Assembly: GCA_944363535.1 (NCBI GenBank)
Contig: CALVUG010000010.1
Coordinates: 1 to 36,918, forward strand
DNA length: 36,918 nt
Origin: an uncultured Bacilli bacterium
Lineage (GTDB): Bacteria > Bacillota_I > Bacilli_A > RFN20 > CAG-826
Direction of reading: 5' to 3'
Part shown: piece after piece, positions 2,182 to 35,296 of the stretch
How the letters are laid out: every line of letters starts with the position of its first letter
Position numbering within the stretch: the stretch's first letter is position 1
Made by a program: the position numbers and the translations under genes
Notes under the pieces: generated by a model
Database searches by the model: none
What the model saw: only the letters and a program-made list of their open reading frames with translations
Told to the model about the DNA's origin: nothing

Positions 2182-3488
2182 TGTGTCTTTCTCCTAAAAA
2201 TTAATTTGATTGGTGAACCATCGAAGACGAAAGTCTCACGCAGACGATTTTTTAAATAACGTTCGTAAGAAAAATGTAGATAGTTAGGATCGTTACAAAA
2301 TAAGACGATAGTCGGAGGTTTAATAGCCACTTGATTTGCGTAATATATTCTTAATCTTCCCCCATTAAAATTTGGTGTCTCATTCATAATTTGTGCATCT
2401 TCGATCACGCTATTTAATAAAGAGGTTTGAATACGAGAAACATAACCATCGTAAGCGACGTCGATAGCTTTAAAAATCGTATGTAATCTTTCCTTTTTTA
2501 AAGCCGAGACAAAGACGATAGGAGCGTAATCTAAAAACTTAAATTCAGCACGTATCAATTTTTCAAATTCTTGCATCGTCTTTTCGTTTTTTTCCACTAA
2601 ATCCCACTTATTTACGACGATGATGATAGCTTTATCTTGTTCGATAGCGTAACCTATAACGTGCTTATCTTGTTCGATGATACCCACACTTGCGTCGATG
2701 ACAAGTAAGACGATGTCACTTCTTTCCATCGCTTTCAAAGCTCTTAAAGCACTATATTTATCGATAGCTTCATAGATCTTACCGCGCCTTTTTAACCCAG
2801 CCGTATCGATCACTTTATAACTTCTTCCATCACGAGTAAAATCGATGTCGATAGCGTCTCTTGTCGTCCCTTCAATATTCGATGTAATGACACGATTTTT
2901 ATTAATTAAAGCATTAGTCAAAGATGACTTACCAACATTAGGGCGACCCACTAAGGTAAAACAAATTTTACCCTCTTCTACTTGTTCTACTTTTGTAGGA
3001 AGATAAGAGACAATTTTATCTAATAAGTCACCGATCCCAATACCATGTACCCCACTTACTAAAATGGGTTCACCTAAACCTAGAGCGTAGAAATCGTAAA
3101 GATTTTCTACCTTATTTTTATTATCAGATTTATTGATAGCGAGGATGACTGGTTTCTTCTCTTTTCTTAAAATTCTTGCCACTAGTTCATCATCTTTTGA
3201 AACGCCTGTTTTTGCGTCCACTAAAAAGACGATGACATCCGCCTCTTCGATAGCGATTTTAGCTTGCATCCTAATCTCATCTTGGAAAGGACGATCTTCG
3301 ATTTCAATTCCACCCGTGTCGATTAAATAAAACGAATGACCAAGCCATTCGCATAGACCATACATCCTATCTCTTGTCACGCCCGGCATATCGTTAACGA
3401 TAGCTTTTCTTTCGCCGAGTAGACGATTGAAGATAGTAGATTTTCCGACGTTTGGACTACCTACTAAGGCGACGTAGCCTTTAGCCAT
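2178..3488 (-). CDS. der: Ribosome biogenesis GTPase Der (EngA)
   Basis: Essential double GTPase for maturation of the 50S subunit. Domain 1 has the P-loop GSPNVGKS (10-17), DTGG (57-60) and NKSD (119-122). Domain 2 has GRPNVGKS (181-188), DTAG (228-231) and NKWD (293-296). The C-terminal KH-like domain (about 350-436) contacts rRNA. The 436-residue length is typical. It overlaps the end of cmk by 8 bases and gpsA by 4. Confidence 0.97.
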   Translation of the reverse strand: MAKGYVALVGSPNVGKSTIFNRLLGERKAIVNDMPGVTRDRMYGLCEWLGHSFYLIDTGGIEIEDRPFQDEIRMQAKIAIEEADVIVFLVDAKTGVSKDDELVARILRKEKKPVILAINKSDNKNKVENLYDFYALGLGEPILVSGVHGIGIGDLLDKIVSYLPTKVEQVEEGKICFTLVGRPNVGKSSLTNALINKNRVITSNIEGTTRDAIDIDFTRDGRSYKVIDTAGLKRRGKIYEAIDKYSALRALKAMERSDIVLLVIDASVGIIEQDKHVIGYAIEQDKAIIIVVNKWDLVEKNEKTMQEFEKLIRAEFKFLDYAPIVFVSALKKERLHTIFKAIDVAYDGYVSRIQTSLLNSVIEDAQIMNETPNFNGGRLRIYYANQVAIKPPTIVLFCNDPNYLHFSYERYLKNRLRETFVFDGSPIKLIFRRKTQ

Positions 3489-4167: not shown

Positions 4168-4506
4168 TTAAAATAAGATGATACCGTAGGCGATAATTAA
4201 AGCGATGATAGCTAAAGAAAGAACAGAAATGATCGCATAATAAATTCTAATTTTTTTATTCATGCGAATGTAAGAAAAAGTCGATGGTTTATAGTCACCG
4301 TCTTTTTTTCCATCATCATTTAATTCTTCGTAATGTAAACCAAGATTAGGATGAGACATCAGTTGATCAATTTCTTGTTTCTTACTAGGATCAACTTCCA
4401 TCTTCGACGATGAAAAAGTCGTAATCGTATCGAAATCGTCATCATCCATCGCTTCGATCGATTTTCTTCTTTGCTTAAATAAGTCAGTTCTCGTCTTTTT
4501 CGTCAT
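4168..4506 (-). CDS. Small single-pass membrane protein of unknown function
   Basis: No family recognised. The 112-residue protein has a charged cytoplasmic-looking part with an acidic DDDDFD run (21-26) and lysine/arginine-rich segments, and one hydrophobic helix at about 87-110 that ends the protein. This looks like a C-terminal tail anchor. It has no signal peptide. It is the first gene of the cmk-der-gpsA operon, 12 bases before cmk, and a TATAAAAT box lies upstream in the gap shared with the divergent ferredoxin gene. Confidence 0.7.
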   Translation of the reverse strand: MTKKTRTDLFKQRRKSIEAMDDDDFDTITTFSSSKMEVDPSKKQEIDQLMSHPNLGLHYEELNDDGKKDGDYKPSTFSYIRMNKKIRIYYAIISVLSLAIIALIIAYGIILF

Positions 4507-4873: not shown

Positions 4874-5557
4874 TTGCTCTTCTTCTTGATTTATCGTCTC
4901 TACGACCACTTCTTTATTTTTCTTTTCTTCCGCTTTTTTAAGTTTAGCTTGATGGTAAGCATTAGCAATCTTTTCGATTGTTCGACGCATAATTTTATAG
5001 ATGAGTAAAGTCGCTACGACGACGATCGCATCTTTTAATGCATTAAACGGTAAAGCGATATAAAAACCATATGACCAGTCGAGGTTAGTGACGTATGGGA
5101 AAGTTTCTTGAATCATCGATAAATCTAATCCAAATAGATAAGCATAGAATGGAACGGAAATATAAATATTGACGATTAGTGCAAAGAATAATTGTAAGAT
5201 TGTTCCGACGAGTAAACCTAATAAAGCCCATTTAAATTTACGACGATATTTATAGATGATGACAGCCGGAATGATGAAGACGATAGAAAGAAATAAGTCC
5301 GTCAATTCCCCGACGCACATCGTCGAAGTCATCGGTAATTTGATGATCGTCTTAATAAAAATTGAGGTGAGCGCCACTAAGGGGCCATAAGCAAATCCAG
5401 CGACAAAATTAGGAATTTCATCGAGGTGAATTTCTAAAAATGAAGGAGCGAATGGTACCTTAAATTGTAAGCCGGGGACGACGTAAAGAATAGTCGCTAT
5501 CGCCCCGAAGATAGCGGACCTTGTCATGAAGAGAATAATCTTGTGTGTCCTTGACAT
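4859..5557 (-). CDS. ribU: ECF transporter riboflavin-specific S component RibU
   Basis: Membrane protein that binds riboflavin and joins the shared ECF energizing module (not in this window). The N-terminal half has the RibU-like layout: a first helix (about 7-28), a FAPSFLEIHLDEIP segment (36-49), then FVAGFAYGPL (51-60). About six hydrophobic segments are present and the C-terminus is a charged Lys/Glu tail of about 45 residues, longer than usual. The assignment is strongly supported by the FMN riboswitch in its 5' leader. The ATG directly follows the T-run of the leader terminator, and its Shine-Dalgarno AGGAG lies inside that hairpin. Confidence 0.93.
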   Translation of the reverse strand: MSRTHKIILFMTRSAIFGAIATILYVVPGLQFKVPFAPSFLEIHLDEIPNFVAGFAYGPLVALTSIFIKTIIKLPMTSTMCVGELTDLFLSIVFIIPAVIIYKYRRKFKWALLGLLVGTILQLFFALIVNIYISVPFYAYLFGLDLSMIQETFPYVTNLDWSYGFYIALPFNALKDAIVVVATLLIYKIMRRTIEKIANAYHQAKLKKAEEKKNKEVVVETINQEEEQEKKR

Positions 5558-31965: not shown

Positions 31966-33581
31966 GAAAAAATTATGAATTAACGATGTACATGGCCTTA
32001 AGACGAACGGCGCTTCATCATCCAACATACCGTGCCTTAAATTTTGAAGGACGTTTCATCAATTATCGAACTCTCATCGATAAGATTGATTTATATGCTT
32101 CTAACATCAAAAAATATCATCTCGATGAAAAAGGTGTCATCACGTTATGTTTGCCTAACGTGCCTGATGCAATTTATTTACTTTACGCTTTCAATAAACT
32201 AGGAGTGAAATTAAGTCTTGTTCATCCTTTGATGAATGCTTCCATCTTAAAAAAGACGATGGAAAAAACTTCTTCTCACGTCGTCTTCGTCTTAGATACG
32301 ATGTATTTAAAATTTAAACATCTAGAAGATGAACTAGATTATAAGATTGAAGTCATCCCTTGCATCGTTAAAAAAGACTTGAATATTTTTAAGAAACTAG
32401 GCTATCAAATTATCAACCGCAAGAATTTAAAATATAAAGTAACTCTATCAACTTTGAATCTTTCAAGAGGCAAAAGGGAAGTAACCCCAATTGATGATGA
32501 CATTCATAGCGACCGCTTCTATCTACAATCTGGTGGTACCTCTGGAGCGTCTAAAACTATCGCTTTAAGCAATCTCAACATTAACGCGAACGTACGTTTC
32601 TTCTTCGATCGACTAAGTTTAGACACTCCTAAGAATAAATATATGCTTGCCGTCTTACCAATGTTTCATGCTTTCGGCTTATGCATGGGAATTCACGTCG
32701 CTTTATATTTTGGAGGCTGCGATATGCTCATGCCAAAATTTTCTAGTAAGAAAACGATCGCCTTAATGAAACGAAAAAAGCTTTCGTTCATCATCGGTAT
32801 TCCTTTACTTTATTCGAAGCTCATCAAAGATAAACATTTCGATGGAAGACATTTAAAATCGCTTAACGTCTGCTTCGTCGGAGGTGACTTCTCAGATGAA
32901 AAAATTATCGAAACTTTCAATAAAACATGCGCAAAACGCCACTCGATGGGTCGTTTATACGTCGGTTATGGCCTAACTGAAGCAAGTGGAGTCGTCTCTT
33001 TAAATACGCACGCTGATCATCGAGACTATACGGCAGGGAAACTATTAGATAATATCGATGTGCTCATCAAAGATACGAATTCGAATAAGATATTAGCTGA
33101 TGAAGAAGATGGTGAAATTTATCTTAGTGGCGAAAATTTGATGAACCATTATTTAGATGAGCCAAACGACGATGCTTTCATCATTTACGAAGGGAAAAAA
33201 TATTTTGATACTGGTGACTTTGGTCACGTGACAAAAGACCGCTTCTTAGTTTTCAAACAAAGAGTAAAAAATATTATTAAAGTCAAAGGCATTAACGTTT
33301 TCCCACAGGAGATAGAACAGGTTTTAAAAGAGCATGATGCAATCTATGATTGTAAAGCTATCGGCGTTCAAGATGATGAATTTTCGCATAAAATTGTCCT
33401 CTTCGTCGTCTTAAATAAGAAATCGAATAAAACGATCGATGAAAAAGAAATTAGATCGCTCGTCGATGAAAAATGCGGAAGATATTCTTCCCCTCACATC
33501 ATTAAATTTATCGATAAACTACCTTACACGAACATTGGAAAAGTTGACGTCTTAAAACTTGAAGAGATGTCAAAAGATTAA
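31962..33581 (+). CDS. AMP-forming acyl-CoA synthetase-like enzyme
   Basis: ANL-superfamily enzyme that activates a carboxylic (probably fatty) acid through an acyl-adenylate. The P-loop-like SGGTSGASKT is at 190-199, GYGLTEASG at 335-343, YFDTGD at 414-419, the hinge region near FKQRVKNIIKVKGINVFP (about 430-447), and the adenylation lysine is K527 in NIGKVD. At 539 residues it is full length. Its product could feed the coupled membrane acyltransferase. Both acyl-CoA and acyl-ACP ligase roles are possible. A short AT-rich inverted repeat after the stop (33585-33605) may be a terminator. Confidence 0.88.
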   Translation: MRKNYELTMYMALRRTALHHPTYRALNFEGRFINYRTLIDKIDLYASNIKKYHLDEKGVITLCLPNVPDAIYLLYAFNKLGVKLSLVHPLMNASILKKTMEKTSSHVVFVLDTMYLKFKHLEDELDYKIEVIPCIVKKDLNIFKKLGYQIINRKNLKYKVTLSTLNLSRGKREVTPIDDDIHSDRFYLQSGGTSGASKTIALSNLNINANVRFFFDRLSLDTPKNKYMLAVLPMFHAFGLCMGIHVALYFGGCDMLMPKFSSKKTIALMKRKKLSFIIGIPLLYSKLIKDKHFDGRHLKSLNVCFVGGDFSDEKIIETFNKTCAKRHSMGRLYVGYGLTEASGVVSLNTHADHRDYTAGKLLDNIDVLIKDTNSNKILADEEDGEIYLSGENLMNHYLDEPNDDAFIIYEGKKYFDTGDFGHVTKDRFLVFKQRVKNIIKVKGINVFPQEIEQVLKEHDAIYDCKAIGVQDDEFSHKIVLFVVLNKKSNKTIDEKEIRSLVDEKCGRYSSPHIIKFIDKLPYTNIGKVDVLKLEEMSKD

Positions 33582-34017
33582 TTCTTTATTTTTAAAAATA
33601 AAAAGTTGTCCGCAAACCATTATAACAGGATACTTTTTACTATTTTCAAAATTATTTGTTCAATATTTCTGTCAATATACATGTGAATTCCTTCCGAGAA
33701 ATATAAAGTCTAATTTTATTTTGCTCGGAATTATTCAATTATCAGTATCAAAACTTAATCATGATATCGTTAACTATTCATAAATAAATATCTCGAATAC
33801 GTTTTAGAAAATATTAATAAGTTACCTATTGATGATCTTTTACCTTGGTCAGAGAAACTTTCTAAATCACTATCAATTAAGCAATATTTAAAGTAACTGT
33901 TCGAATATTCGTACACATCTAGGTGAGAATCTTTTAGGGATACCTTTATTTACGTGGATGTTGTGTCTTTTATAAAAGCATTCAATCGTATCGTAATAAA
34001 TATATAACAATGATGTG
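33582..34017. other. AT-rich stretch without intact gene
   Basis: About 440 bases between the acyl-CoA synthetase-like gene and the left fic repeat. It holds the transposase tail at 33774-33896, a TATAAT with a TTGAAA 19 bases away on the minus strand near 33615-33650, and the short palindrome CGAATATTCG at 33902-33911. Composition is poorer in CG words than the flanking core genes. No complete reading frame, RNA or insertion-sequence ends could be recognised. Confidence 0.6.
33774..33896 (+). pseudogene. C-terminal remnant of an IS66-like transposase
   Basis: The plus-strand frame ending at the TAA at 33894 reads KYLEYVLENIN, then KLPIDDLLPWSEKL, which resembles the closing segment of IS66 TnpC transposases (tyrosine/leucine-rich helix, then a DLLPW motif). 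A stop at 33771 closes the frame upstream, so only about 40 codons survive and the catalytic core is gone. It marks this spot as a former insertion site. Short length keeps confidence moderate. Confidence 0.55.
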
Positions 34018-34070
34018 ATTCTCTCATTTTTAAAAGATTTCTCGTAAAATATTGTGCCAAATGAGAGAAA
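34018..34070. repeat. Left 53-bp direct repeat flanking fic
   Basis: Aligns without gaps to 35111-35163 at a constant offset of 1093 bases, 42 of 53 positions identical. Perfectly kept blocks are ATTCTCTCAT, TTTCTCGTAAA and ATGAGAGAAA. It abuts the fic stop codon. On the minus strand it ends with ATGAGAGAA, the same three codons that open fic, which here lead into a 25-codon frame (34027 down to 33950) unlike Fic. Confidence 0.85.
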
Positions 34071-35120
34071 CTATAATTTCACTATATAATATGTTGTTTT
34101 ACCAGAACCTTGTTTTTCAAGTTTTCTTTCTTCTACCATTTTAGCCATTGCTTTTTCAATAGCGCTAATAGATAAACTTGGACATAATTCCGCAATATCA
34201 GATTTTGTAATTTTGCCAATTTTTTGCTTAATTGCATTATCAACTAGTTCATATGCAGACATTTTTTTAGATATTAGTTTTACTCTTTGTTCAAAATCAT
34301 CATAGGCCATCTCAATAATGCTTAGTAAATATTTAACAAATGGAGTCGGATCATCATTTCCTTCGTGCCATCCATGCTGAGAATCGAACAAGGCATCATA
34401 ATATAAATCTTTTATCTTCGATATTTTTGCTTCTAAAGAAATATATTTTCCAACATAATATCCAGATTTATATAAAAGTAAAGTTGTAAGTAGCCTAGAC
34501 ATTCTTCCGTTACCATCATTAAATGGATGTATGCATAAAAAATCATGAATAAAAATCGGGATTAAAATAAGTGAATCAACATCTTTTCTTTCTATCGCCT
34601 TATTATATTCATCGCATAAATTTTTAATTGCGATAGGGGTTTCAAATGGTGAAAGCGGGGTAAATAAAATATAACTATTACCTTTTTCATCCGTTGCGCT
34701 TATATAATTTTGGACATTTTTAAATTTCCCACCATCATTAACTTCGTCATTATGAGAACATAAAATAGAATGTAATTGTAAAATATAATTAGGCGTTAAT
34801 GGAATGTATTCAAAACTATCGTGAATAGTTGATAATGTATCTCTATAGCCAGCAATTTCTTTTTCATTTCTATTTTTTGGAGTAGTTTTTTCGTATACAA
34901 GTTGTTTTAATCTTGAATCAGTTGTTCTAATTCCTTCTATTGCATTACTAGCATCAGTACTTTGTATTTTAGCAATTTCAACTAATCTATTTAAATCAGC
35001 AGGTTTTTGAGCCAAATATAGCTCTTGTTTTCCCTTTGCTTCGTGAATATTTGCTACCTTAAGAAGTATTTCATTATTCCAAGATATATATTTTAGTTTA
35101 CTATAATCAAATTCTCTCAT
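34071..35120 (-). CDS. fic: Fic domain AMPylase with N-terminal inhibitory motif and C-terminal winged helix
   Basis: Fic proteins transfer AMP (or other phosphate-linked groups) from nucleotides to hydroxyl groups of target proteins. The full active motif HPFNDGNGRMSR is at 198-209, so the enzyme should be active. An inhibitory helix motif S-x3-E-G (SNAIEG, 58-63) sits in the N-terminal part, as in class II Fic proteins, whose glutamate blocks the ATP site. The C-terminal region (about 285-349) looks like a winged helix and may bind DNA. The gene has few CG words and more A/T-ending codons than its neighbours, and 53-bp repeats bracket it, which suggests acquisition. No separate antitoxin gene is present. 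AAGAGG lies 5 bases before the ATG. Confidence 0.93.
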   Translation of the reverse strand: MREFDYSKLKYISWNNEILLKVANIHEAKGKQELYLAQKPADLNRLVEIAKIQSTDASNAIEGIRTTDSRLKQLVYEKTTPKNRNEKEIAGYRDTLSTIHDSFEYIPLTPNYILQLHSILCSHNDEVNDGGKFKNVQNYISATDEKGNSYILFTPLSPFETPIAIKNLCDEYNKAIERKDVDSLILIPIFIHDFLCIHPFNDGNGRMSRLLTTLLLYKSGYYVGKYISLEAKISKIKDLYYDALFDSQHGWHEGNDDPTPFVKYLLSIIEMAYDDFEQRVKLISKKMSAYELVDNAIKQKIGKITKSDIAELCPSLSISAIEKAMAKMVEERKLEKQGSGKTTYYIVKL

Positions 35121-35163
35121 ATTTAACCTCTTTCTCGTAAATTATAGCATAAAATGAGAGAAA
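35111..35163. repeat. Right 53-bp direct repeat holding the fic promoter and start
   Basis: Partner of 34018-34070. On the minus strand it contains, in order, TTTCTCTCAT, the extended -10 TGCTATAAT, TTTACGAGAAA, the Shine-Dalgarno AAGAGG and the first three fic codons. Three TTCTC-type boxes, two as inverted copies, surround the -10, so it also looks like an operator. Confidence 0.85.
35141..35149 (-). promoter_or_regulatory. fic promoter (extended -10)
   Basis: TGCTATAAT on the minus strand, an extended -10 with no good -35. Predicted start near 35134, giving a 13-base leader with AAGAGG. It lies between inverted TTTCTC/GAGAAA boxes, which suits repression by a protein bound across it, perhaps Fic's own winged helix. 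Confidence 0.6.
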
Positions 35164-35296
35164 AACTAATAATTATGAATAAAAGACATCACTTCGCATC
35201 ATTTTCATACGCTAGATGAATATCAAAATTAAAAATGCTCAATTTCTCGAGTATATATAATTCAATTTAATACGAAGTATCAAAATAAATCACTAA

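Follow-up and report, generated by a model that had tools for sequence, protein, structure and literature searches.

A class II fic gene framed by two operator-like arrays in an uncultured Bacilli bacterium: probable self-repression with an auxiliary site behind the stop codon

The fic gene and its repeated promoter

Near the right end of the window, that is, the whole 36,918-nucleotide stretch of contig CALVUG010000010.1 analyzed in this study, a gene for a Fic enzyme lies between two direct repeats, one of which contains its promoter while the other follows its stop codon. Why should a promoter element recur behind the gene that it serves? A sequence-only reading of the locus had offered three answers: a gene cassette exchanged between the repeats, the scar of a tandem duplication, or paired operators bound by the winged helix of Fic itself. 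Loci and genomes used for comparison are denoted below by L and G numbers, respectively.

The fic gene (34071..35120, minus strand) encodes a class II Fic enzyme of 349 amino acids, as assigned from the list of open reading frames, Pfam, PADLOC, and an AlphaFold2 model. The protein has the core HPFNDGNGRMSR and matches the Pfam Fic family at 2e-17, and the Fic motif HPFx(D/E)GN(G/K)R is present as HPFNDGNGR, which is invariant in the alignment. The class II inhibitory motif (S/T)xxxE(G/N) is found in the N-terminal part as SNAIEG, residues 58-63, and every residue of S58-NAI-E62-G63 except A60 is invariant among 34 relatives. No antitoxin-like open reading frame adjoins fic, and the inhibitory motif is located within Fic itself. 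A type II toxin-antitoxin system of the Fic/Doc class I kind was rejected, as there is no adjacent gene for an inhibitory-helix antitoxin.

The AlphaFold2 model (mean pLDDT 82) predicts a C-terminal winged helix at residues 289-347, with helices at 289-298, 306-312, and 318-330 and a two-strand wing at 334-347, these blocks having pLDDT values of 67-90; the built-in DNA-binding domain suspected from the sequence is also predicted by the model. The best solved relative is the Bordetella Fic protein 8UQU, followed by SoFic, CbFic2, and CccR (7XUX), and the PADLOC profile for SoFic, a phage-defence protein, matches the window protein at 8e-41.

The 53-bp copies at 34018-34070 and 35111-35163 are identical at 42 of 53 positions, as first described, and the pair is real: when the surrounding 3 kb was shuffled 200 times with dinucleotides preserved, the best match reached 27.7 on average and 32 at most. 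An unsupervised repeat search recovered the same pair as 71 nt at 73% with an offset of 1093, and no further copy of the 53-bp element was found in the genome when up to three mismatches were allowed.

The right copy, hereafter U, is the putative promoter operator array (35111..35163, minus strand). Read on the minus strand from 35163 to 35111, it has the structure TTTCTCTCAT-TTTATGCTATAA-TTTACGAGAAA-GAGGTTAAAT-ATGAGAGAAT. The best-kept blocks of the repeat are three boxes, as had been noticed from the sequence: box 2, TTTCTCTCAT (35154..35163), box 3, TTTACGAGAAA (35131..35141), and box 4, ATGAGAGAA (35112..35120), the last of which also forms fic codons 1-3. The -10 hexamer TATAAT (35141..35146) lies within the array as part of an extended -10, TGCTATAAT, and the Shine-Dalgarno sequence GAGG occupies 35127..35130, so that all the promoter and start signals ascribed to this copy were located in it.

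The left copy, hereafter D (34018..34070, minus strand), directly adjoins the fic stop codon (34071-34073) and reads, from 34070 to 34018, TTTCTCTCAT-TTGGCACAATAT-TTTACGAGAAA-TCTTTTAAAA-ATGAGAGAAT. It contains the same boxes 2 (TTTCTCTCAT, 34061..34070), 3 (TTTACGAGAAA, 34038..34048), and 4 (ATGAGAGAA, 34019..34027), the last with no gene behind it. Neither a Shine-Dalgarno sequence, nor a clear -10, nor a following open reading frame is seen at D, although ATGAGAGAA is retained, as the initial description of the left copy had it. We consider D a candidate second operator array without a promoter.

A box array common to the Fic family

To place these boxes in a wider context, we used 80 homologues from genomes together with homologues from viral contigs and others, 123 distinct proteins in all. 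Boxes around the -10 are common, by eye, to the promoters of Fic homologues of gut bacteria, and 117 of the 123 loci clear a lenient inverted-pair threshold. The box order is F-F-R-R, and the inner inverted pair straddles the -10, so that the inverted repeats overlap the -10 region of fic's own promoter. Counted from the first inner box, the register is F at -20 (43 loci), R at +22 (95 loci), and R at +41/+42 (76 loci), with a median box count of 0 at other offsets; this register does not depend on the inverted-pair threshold. In the window array, three of the four box positions are evident.

In approximately one third of the loci, among them L015, L085, and L068, an extra box set (F -73, F -53, R -31) precedes the promoter array at a distance of 53 bp, which gives these fic promoters two tandem arrays. 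Further variants include L004 (G002:C3 128927-131257) and L120 (G060:C2), in which two different fic genes stand in tandem, each with its own promoter type, and L125 of G232 (657-1797), where the two arrays around fic are opposite to each other in box asymmetry, TCTCTCAT and TACGAGAA having changed sides.

The letters of the box vary by clade, the alphabets including TTCCCTTAA, TTCTCGTAA, TTCTCCTAA, TTCGCCTAA, TCTGCACAA, and TTCGTCCAA; the window boxes are of a mixed TTCTCTCAT/TTCTCGTAA kind. Within one alphabet, all 14 sites of the exact paired box in 22 genomes are at fic. The search of related genomes that the sequence-only reading had recommended thus located the motif at fic and at solo sites (see below) and at no general promoter site, and a general regulon site was ruled out, since the exact box pair occurs only in these two contexts. 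The reversed-pattern control gave no matches in 279 genomes and matches in one genome in a search of 298. One candidate, L146, was set aside as probably a chance palindrome because of its 9-nt spacer.

If the winged helix of Fic reads the box, the residues of this domain should follow the box letters. By corrected mutual information, the recognition-helix residues 323, 326, and 318 rank 1, 3, and 4 of 284 columns. When overall protein distance is corrected for, the top two of 289 columns are residue 322 and then residue 306, which both belong to the winged helix, and residues 310, 323, 317, and 326 are also high. Among the pairings, SxSS(I/V)EG goes with CCCTTAA boxes, SKASVEN with TCCTAA or GCCTAA boxes, and SASSVE with TCGTAA boxes. 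The box letters thus appear to track the C-terminal winged helix. This covariation is supportive but not conclusive, because the distance-corrected mean over the whole recognition helix (0.065) lies below that of the best other 18-residue window (0.083).

The second array behind the stop codon

Downstream arrays were sought within 70 bp of the fic stop codon, using as a template the boxes of each locus itself. Such an array was found in 21 of 114 loci, compared with 3 of 3019 background windows. In an earlier scan, limited to the first 81 loci, the count was 14, compared with 3 of 5789. The D arrays occur in three box alphabets, in every case the alphabet of their own locus, and their inner arm begins either 0-2 or 15-22 bp past the stop codon. 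For instance, in G087, which belongs to another genus and whose Fic is 95% identical to that of the window, the D array differs from the window D only outside the boxes. Both arrays were also seen at fic genes on the viral-classed contigs L173, L174, L176, and L185, including some in a third alphabet, TTCGTCCAA.

In the 21 pairs of U and D, the identity is 0.90 in the boxes, 0.42 in the spacers, and 33% in the next eight bases. D is therefore no recent duplicate, and the tandem-duplication scar considered in the sequence-only reading does not hold as an event of recent date. As judged from these comparisons, the repeat pair is neither unique to this locus nor newly duplicated. Selection maintains the boxes of D, and the simplest reason would be that they offer the same protein another place to bind.

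The scar reading as such, in which D would be the functionless leftover promoter of a tandem duplicate or of a lost second fic, could draw on the tandem fic genes known in G002 and G060 and on the spacing of the D-type arrays, which is that of the promoter array. We regard it as highly improbable. The boxes are kept while the spacer, the -10, and the Shine-Dalgarno sequence are lost; this holds for three alphabets and at a constant position after the stop codon, and no remnant of fic was detected beyond D in the loci that have this array. A scar without function in particular is refuted by the box identity in D, which exceeds the spacer identity.

Another possibility is that D acts at the gene end as a regulated antisense promoter or as an aid to termination, with Fic bound there. 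Several relatives have a terminator hairpin directly after D, and in the window a promoter-like site, weak and on the plus strand, is listed at 34061-34090. On the other hand, the region has 14 promoter-like sites compared with 13.4 in shuffles, and no terminator was found beside the window D. Neither an antisense promoter nor a terminator at the window D stands out above the shuffles, and we consider such a role very unlikely, if marginally less so than the leftover promoter.

The second array is not a general property of the family. Since about four fifths of the homologues lack it, D is not essential. A quick tree has D in scattered positions, with 12 changes of the trait, at least 4 of which are forced by well-supported branches. 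The distances between U and D range from 1093 to 1124 bp and have no common helical phase, a pattern that speaks neither for nor against looping over 1.1 kb.

The conserved unit, its site, and single-element loci

The stretch from D through fic to U (34019..35182, minus strand) is common to the window and L008 with 85% nucleotide identity, and the flanks beyond 34019-35182 are unrelated. Compared with the genus mate G001, the window has an additional stretch at 33547..35293; homology with G002 and G003 runs to 35225. In G001, tRNA-Leu directly adjoins the AMP-ligase gene with no fic between them, while the same point is occupied in G002 by a gene for a DUF4143-like ATPase and in G003 by other genes. 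On the evidence of these alignments, the window fic occupies a variable site, flanked by the tRNA-Leu cluster on one side and by the AMP-ligase gene on the other. A remnant of an IS66 transposase, suspected by eye as its decayed tail on the plus strand at about 33780-33897, had no Pfam support.

A pattern search in 279 genomes of the order identified 18 exact elements in 16 genomes (reversed control, 0), of which 11 are at a cognate fic and 7 are away from one (L114, L116, L118, L119, L121, L126, and L127). The clearest case is L121 of G063, whose left flank can be aligned with the left flank found on the U side of L123, L115, and L113, and whose element and right flank, terminator included, align with the D side of the same loci (scores of 67 and 108, compared with shuffle maxima of 36); the apparent switch point lies within a shared CTCTCATTTT. 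By these alignments, L121 is clearly a single element with a U-side left flank and a D-side right flank that lacks a cognate fic. A second single-element locus without fic is probably represented by L126 and L127 (G234 and G235), compared with L125: the left flank scores 83 against 40, and the right flank is weaker (36-39, reached in 4 of 500 shuffles). No cognate fic was found elsewhere in the incomplete assemblies of G029, G045, G063, G234, and G235. Single-element loci may have arisen by loss of fic or may represent the state before its insertion.

Broken loci were found in Clostridia. In L144 (1501-2286), the U promoter array leads into an alpha/beta-hydrolase gene, the very outcome anticipated for a promoter left joined to whatever lies downstream, and in L142 (890-1600), a fic lacking residues 1-143 is joined to an element.

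These loci bear on the proposal that U and D are recombination sites of a mobile cassette, at which the fic unit would be excised and inserted by a recombinase supplied in trans or by a complex with bound Fic, with one element left at empty sites. The fic-less single elements in G063 and probably G234/G235 agree with it, as do the 7 exact elements, of 18 in all, that have no cognate fic beside them, the unit shared between the window and L008 in unrelated flanks, the variable tRNA-Leu site, and the presence of fic on plasmids and on contigs classed as viral. The data give no support to a dedicated excision system. Conservative site-specific recombination usually requires an identical core, whereas the inter-arm spacers of U and D differ in all 21 pairs (mean identity 0.42). 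No recombinase is encoded in the 1.1-kb unit; a serine recombinase lies approximately 300 bp upstream of fic in L008 and has no counterpart in the window. Fixed transposon-like ends were not found, the length of the shared flanks varying from pair to pair, and homologues without D, which form the majority, are equally widespread. Single-copy empty sites do exist, but an identical crossover core and a linked recombinase were not found. We therefore consider a mobile cassette unlikely, and regard the original proposal as right in part, for the single-element loci and for L144. The sequence-only reading had named two outcomes that would speak against it, the motif occurring at unrelated promoters, or relatives having fic without the left copy and no deletion alleles; neither was cleanly obtained, as the motif is not general, and relatives free of the left copy exist along with deletion-type alleles.

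Solo elements of the window box type in L118 (about 2877-2930 and 4305-4428) and L116 (3264-3293) stand beside a different fic, 65% identical, which has its own operator in the alphabet TCTCACCAA. In L121, a HipB/HipA-like gene pair lies between 78-bp direct repeats (3382-3459 and 4972-5049, 83% identical), next to the solo element and to a fic of a third type.

Proposed self-repression with an auxiliary operator

We suggest that Fic represses its own gene through its winged helix and that D is an auxiliary operator. This reading is probably correct, and among the three initial answers the paired operators bound by the Fic winged helix are the best supported by the comparative data. Autorepression is the natural reading because the boxes covary with the helix, because they are private to fic, and because CccR provides a precedent. 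The C-terminal winged helix would recognize the short box, and with the boxes of U placed as F(-20), F(0), R(+22), and R(+42), the inner pair lying across the -10, bound Fic would block RNA polymerase. D, which has the same spacing but no promoter, may persist as an additional binding site at a distance of about 1.1 kb from U, most likely strengthening the repression through bridging or looping to U, or through roadblocking. Both the binding of Fic to the boxes and the action of D on U are what we infer from these patterns. As a by-product, U and D would form short direct repeats, and a rare loss of fic would leave one element.

The seven intact elements away from a cognate fic, which have no obvious job there, count against autorepression. 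In a bolder extension of the model, Fic-winged-helix genes would be self-contained selfish units, in which the enzyme, the private operator code that coevolves with it, and the operator behind the stop codon move as one. A Fic-bound bridge between U and D would both silence fic and align the repeats, so that loss or exchange of fic is built in and solo operators are left across genomes. This extension appears rather doubtful, slightly more so than the mobile cassette.

Several characterized proteins resemble the window Fic. CccR (YPK_0951 of Yersinia pseudotuberculosis, PDB 7XUX) is likewise a class II Fic protein with a C-terminal HTH, and the window protein matches 7XUX in sequence and fold. 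According to the consulted part of its description, CccR acts as a repressor of its own gene, binding to inverted repeats in the -35/-10 region of the promoter, as established by reporter, EMSA, footprint, and ITC experiments (PMC9755527). The CccR site, as given there, is a single pair of arms, each 10 bp long and separated by 26 bp, in contrast to the F-F-R-R array with a clade-specific box in the window family, and that part of the text describes no second array behind the gene (PMC9755527). CccR is also presented there as a secreted effector, whereas nothing in the window suggests secretion.

SoFic/Sofic (Shewanella oneidensis, 3EQX; E. coli) has the same domain order and accounts for the PADLOC match at 8e-41. 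In E. coli, Sofic is countered by the small protein AS1, according to the sections consulted (PMC12249575); no AS1-like open reading frame was seen beside the window fic, and those sections describe no Sofic operator. CbFic2 of Coxiella burnetii (8CIL), a class II Fic with a C-terminal winged HTH, binds DNA, and this binding affects the enzyme activity, as stated in the part of the report consulted (PMC10628234). The binding reported there is to random DNA, and a promoter operator is not described in that part, which distinguishes CbFic2 from the window family.

Class II proteins make up approximately 80% of Fic proteins, and their control is described as little known in the text consulted (PMC9755527). 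An operator code for the winged-helix branch would allow the likely site of an uncharacterized Fic to be read from its promoter, and the single-element relatives would form a natural record of fic genes coming and going. Autorepression by a Fic-HTH protein is already known from CccR. A multi-box array with a clade-specific code, together with a promoterless array behind the stop codon, appears to be new, with no report in the literature searched, mainly openly accessible papers.

Repressors of the lac type act by looping to a remote auxiliary operator that has no promoter of its own, and the window D resembles such a distant second operator. It differs in its place directly behind the end of fic, and in that the enzyme encoded between the two arrays would itself be the repressor.
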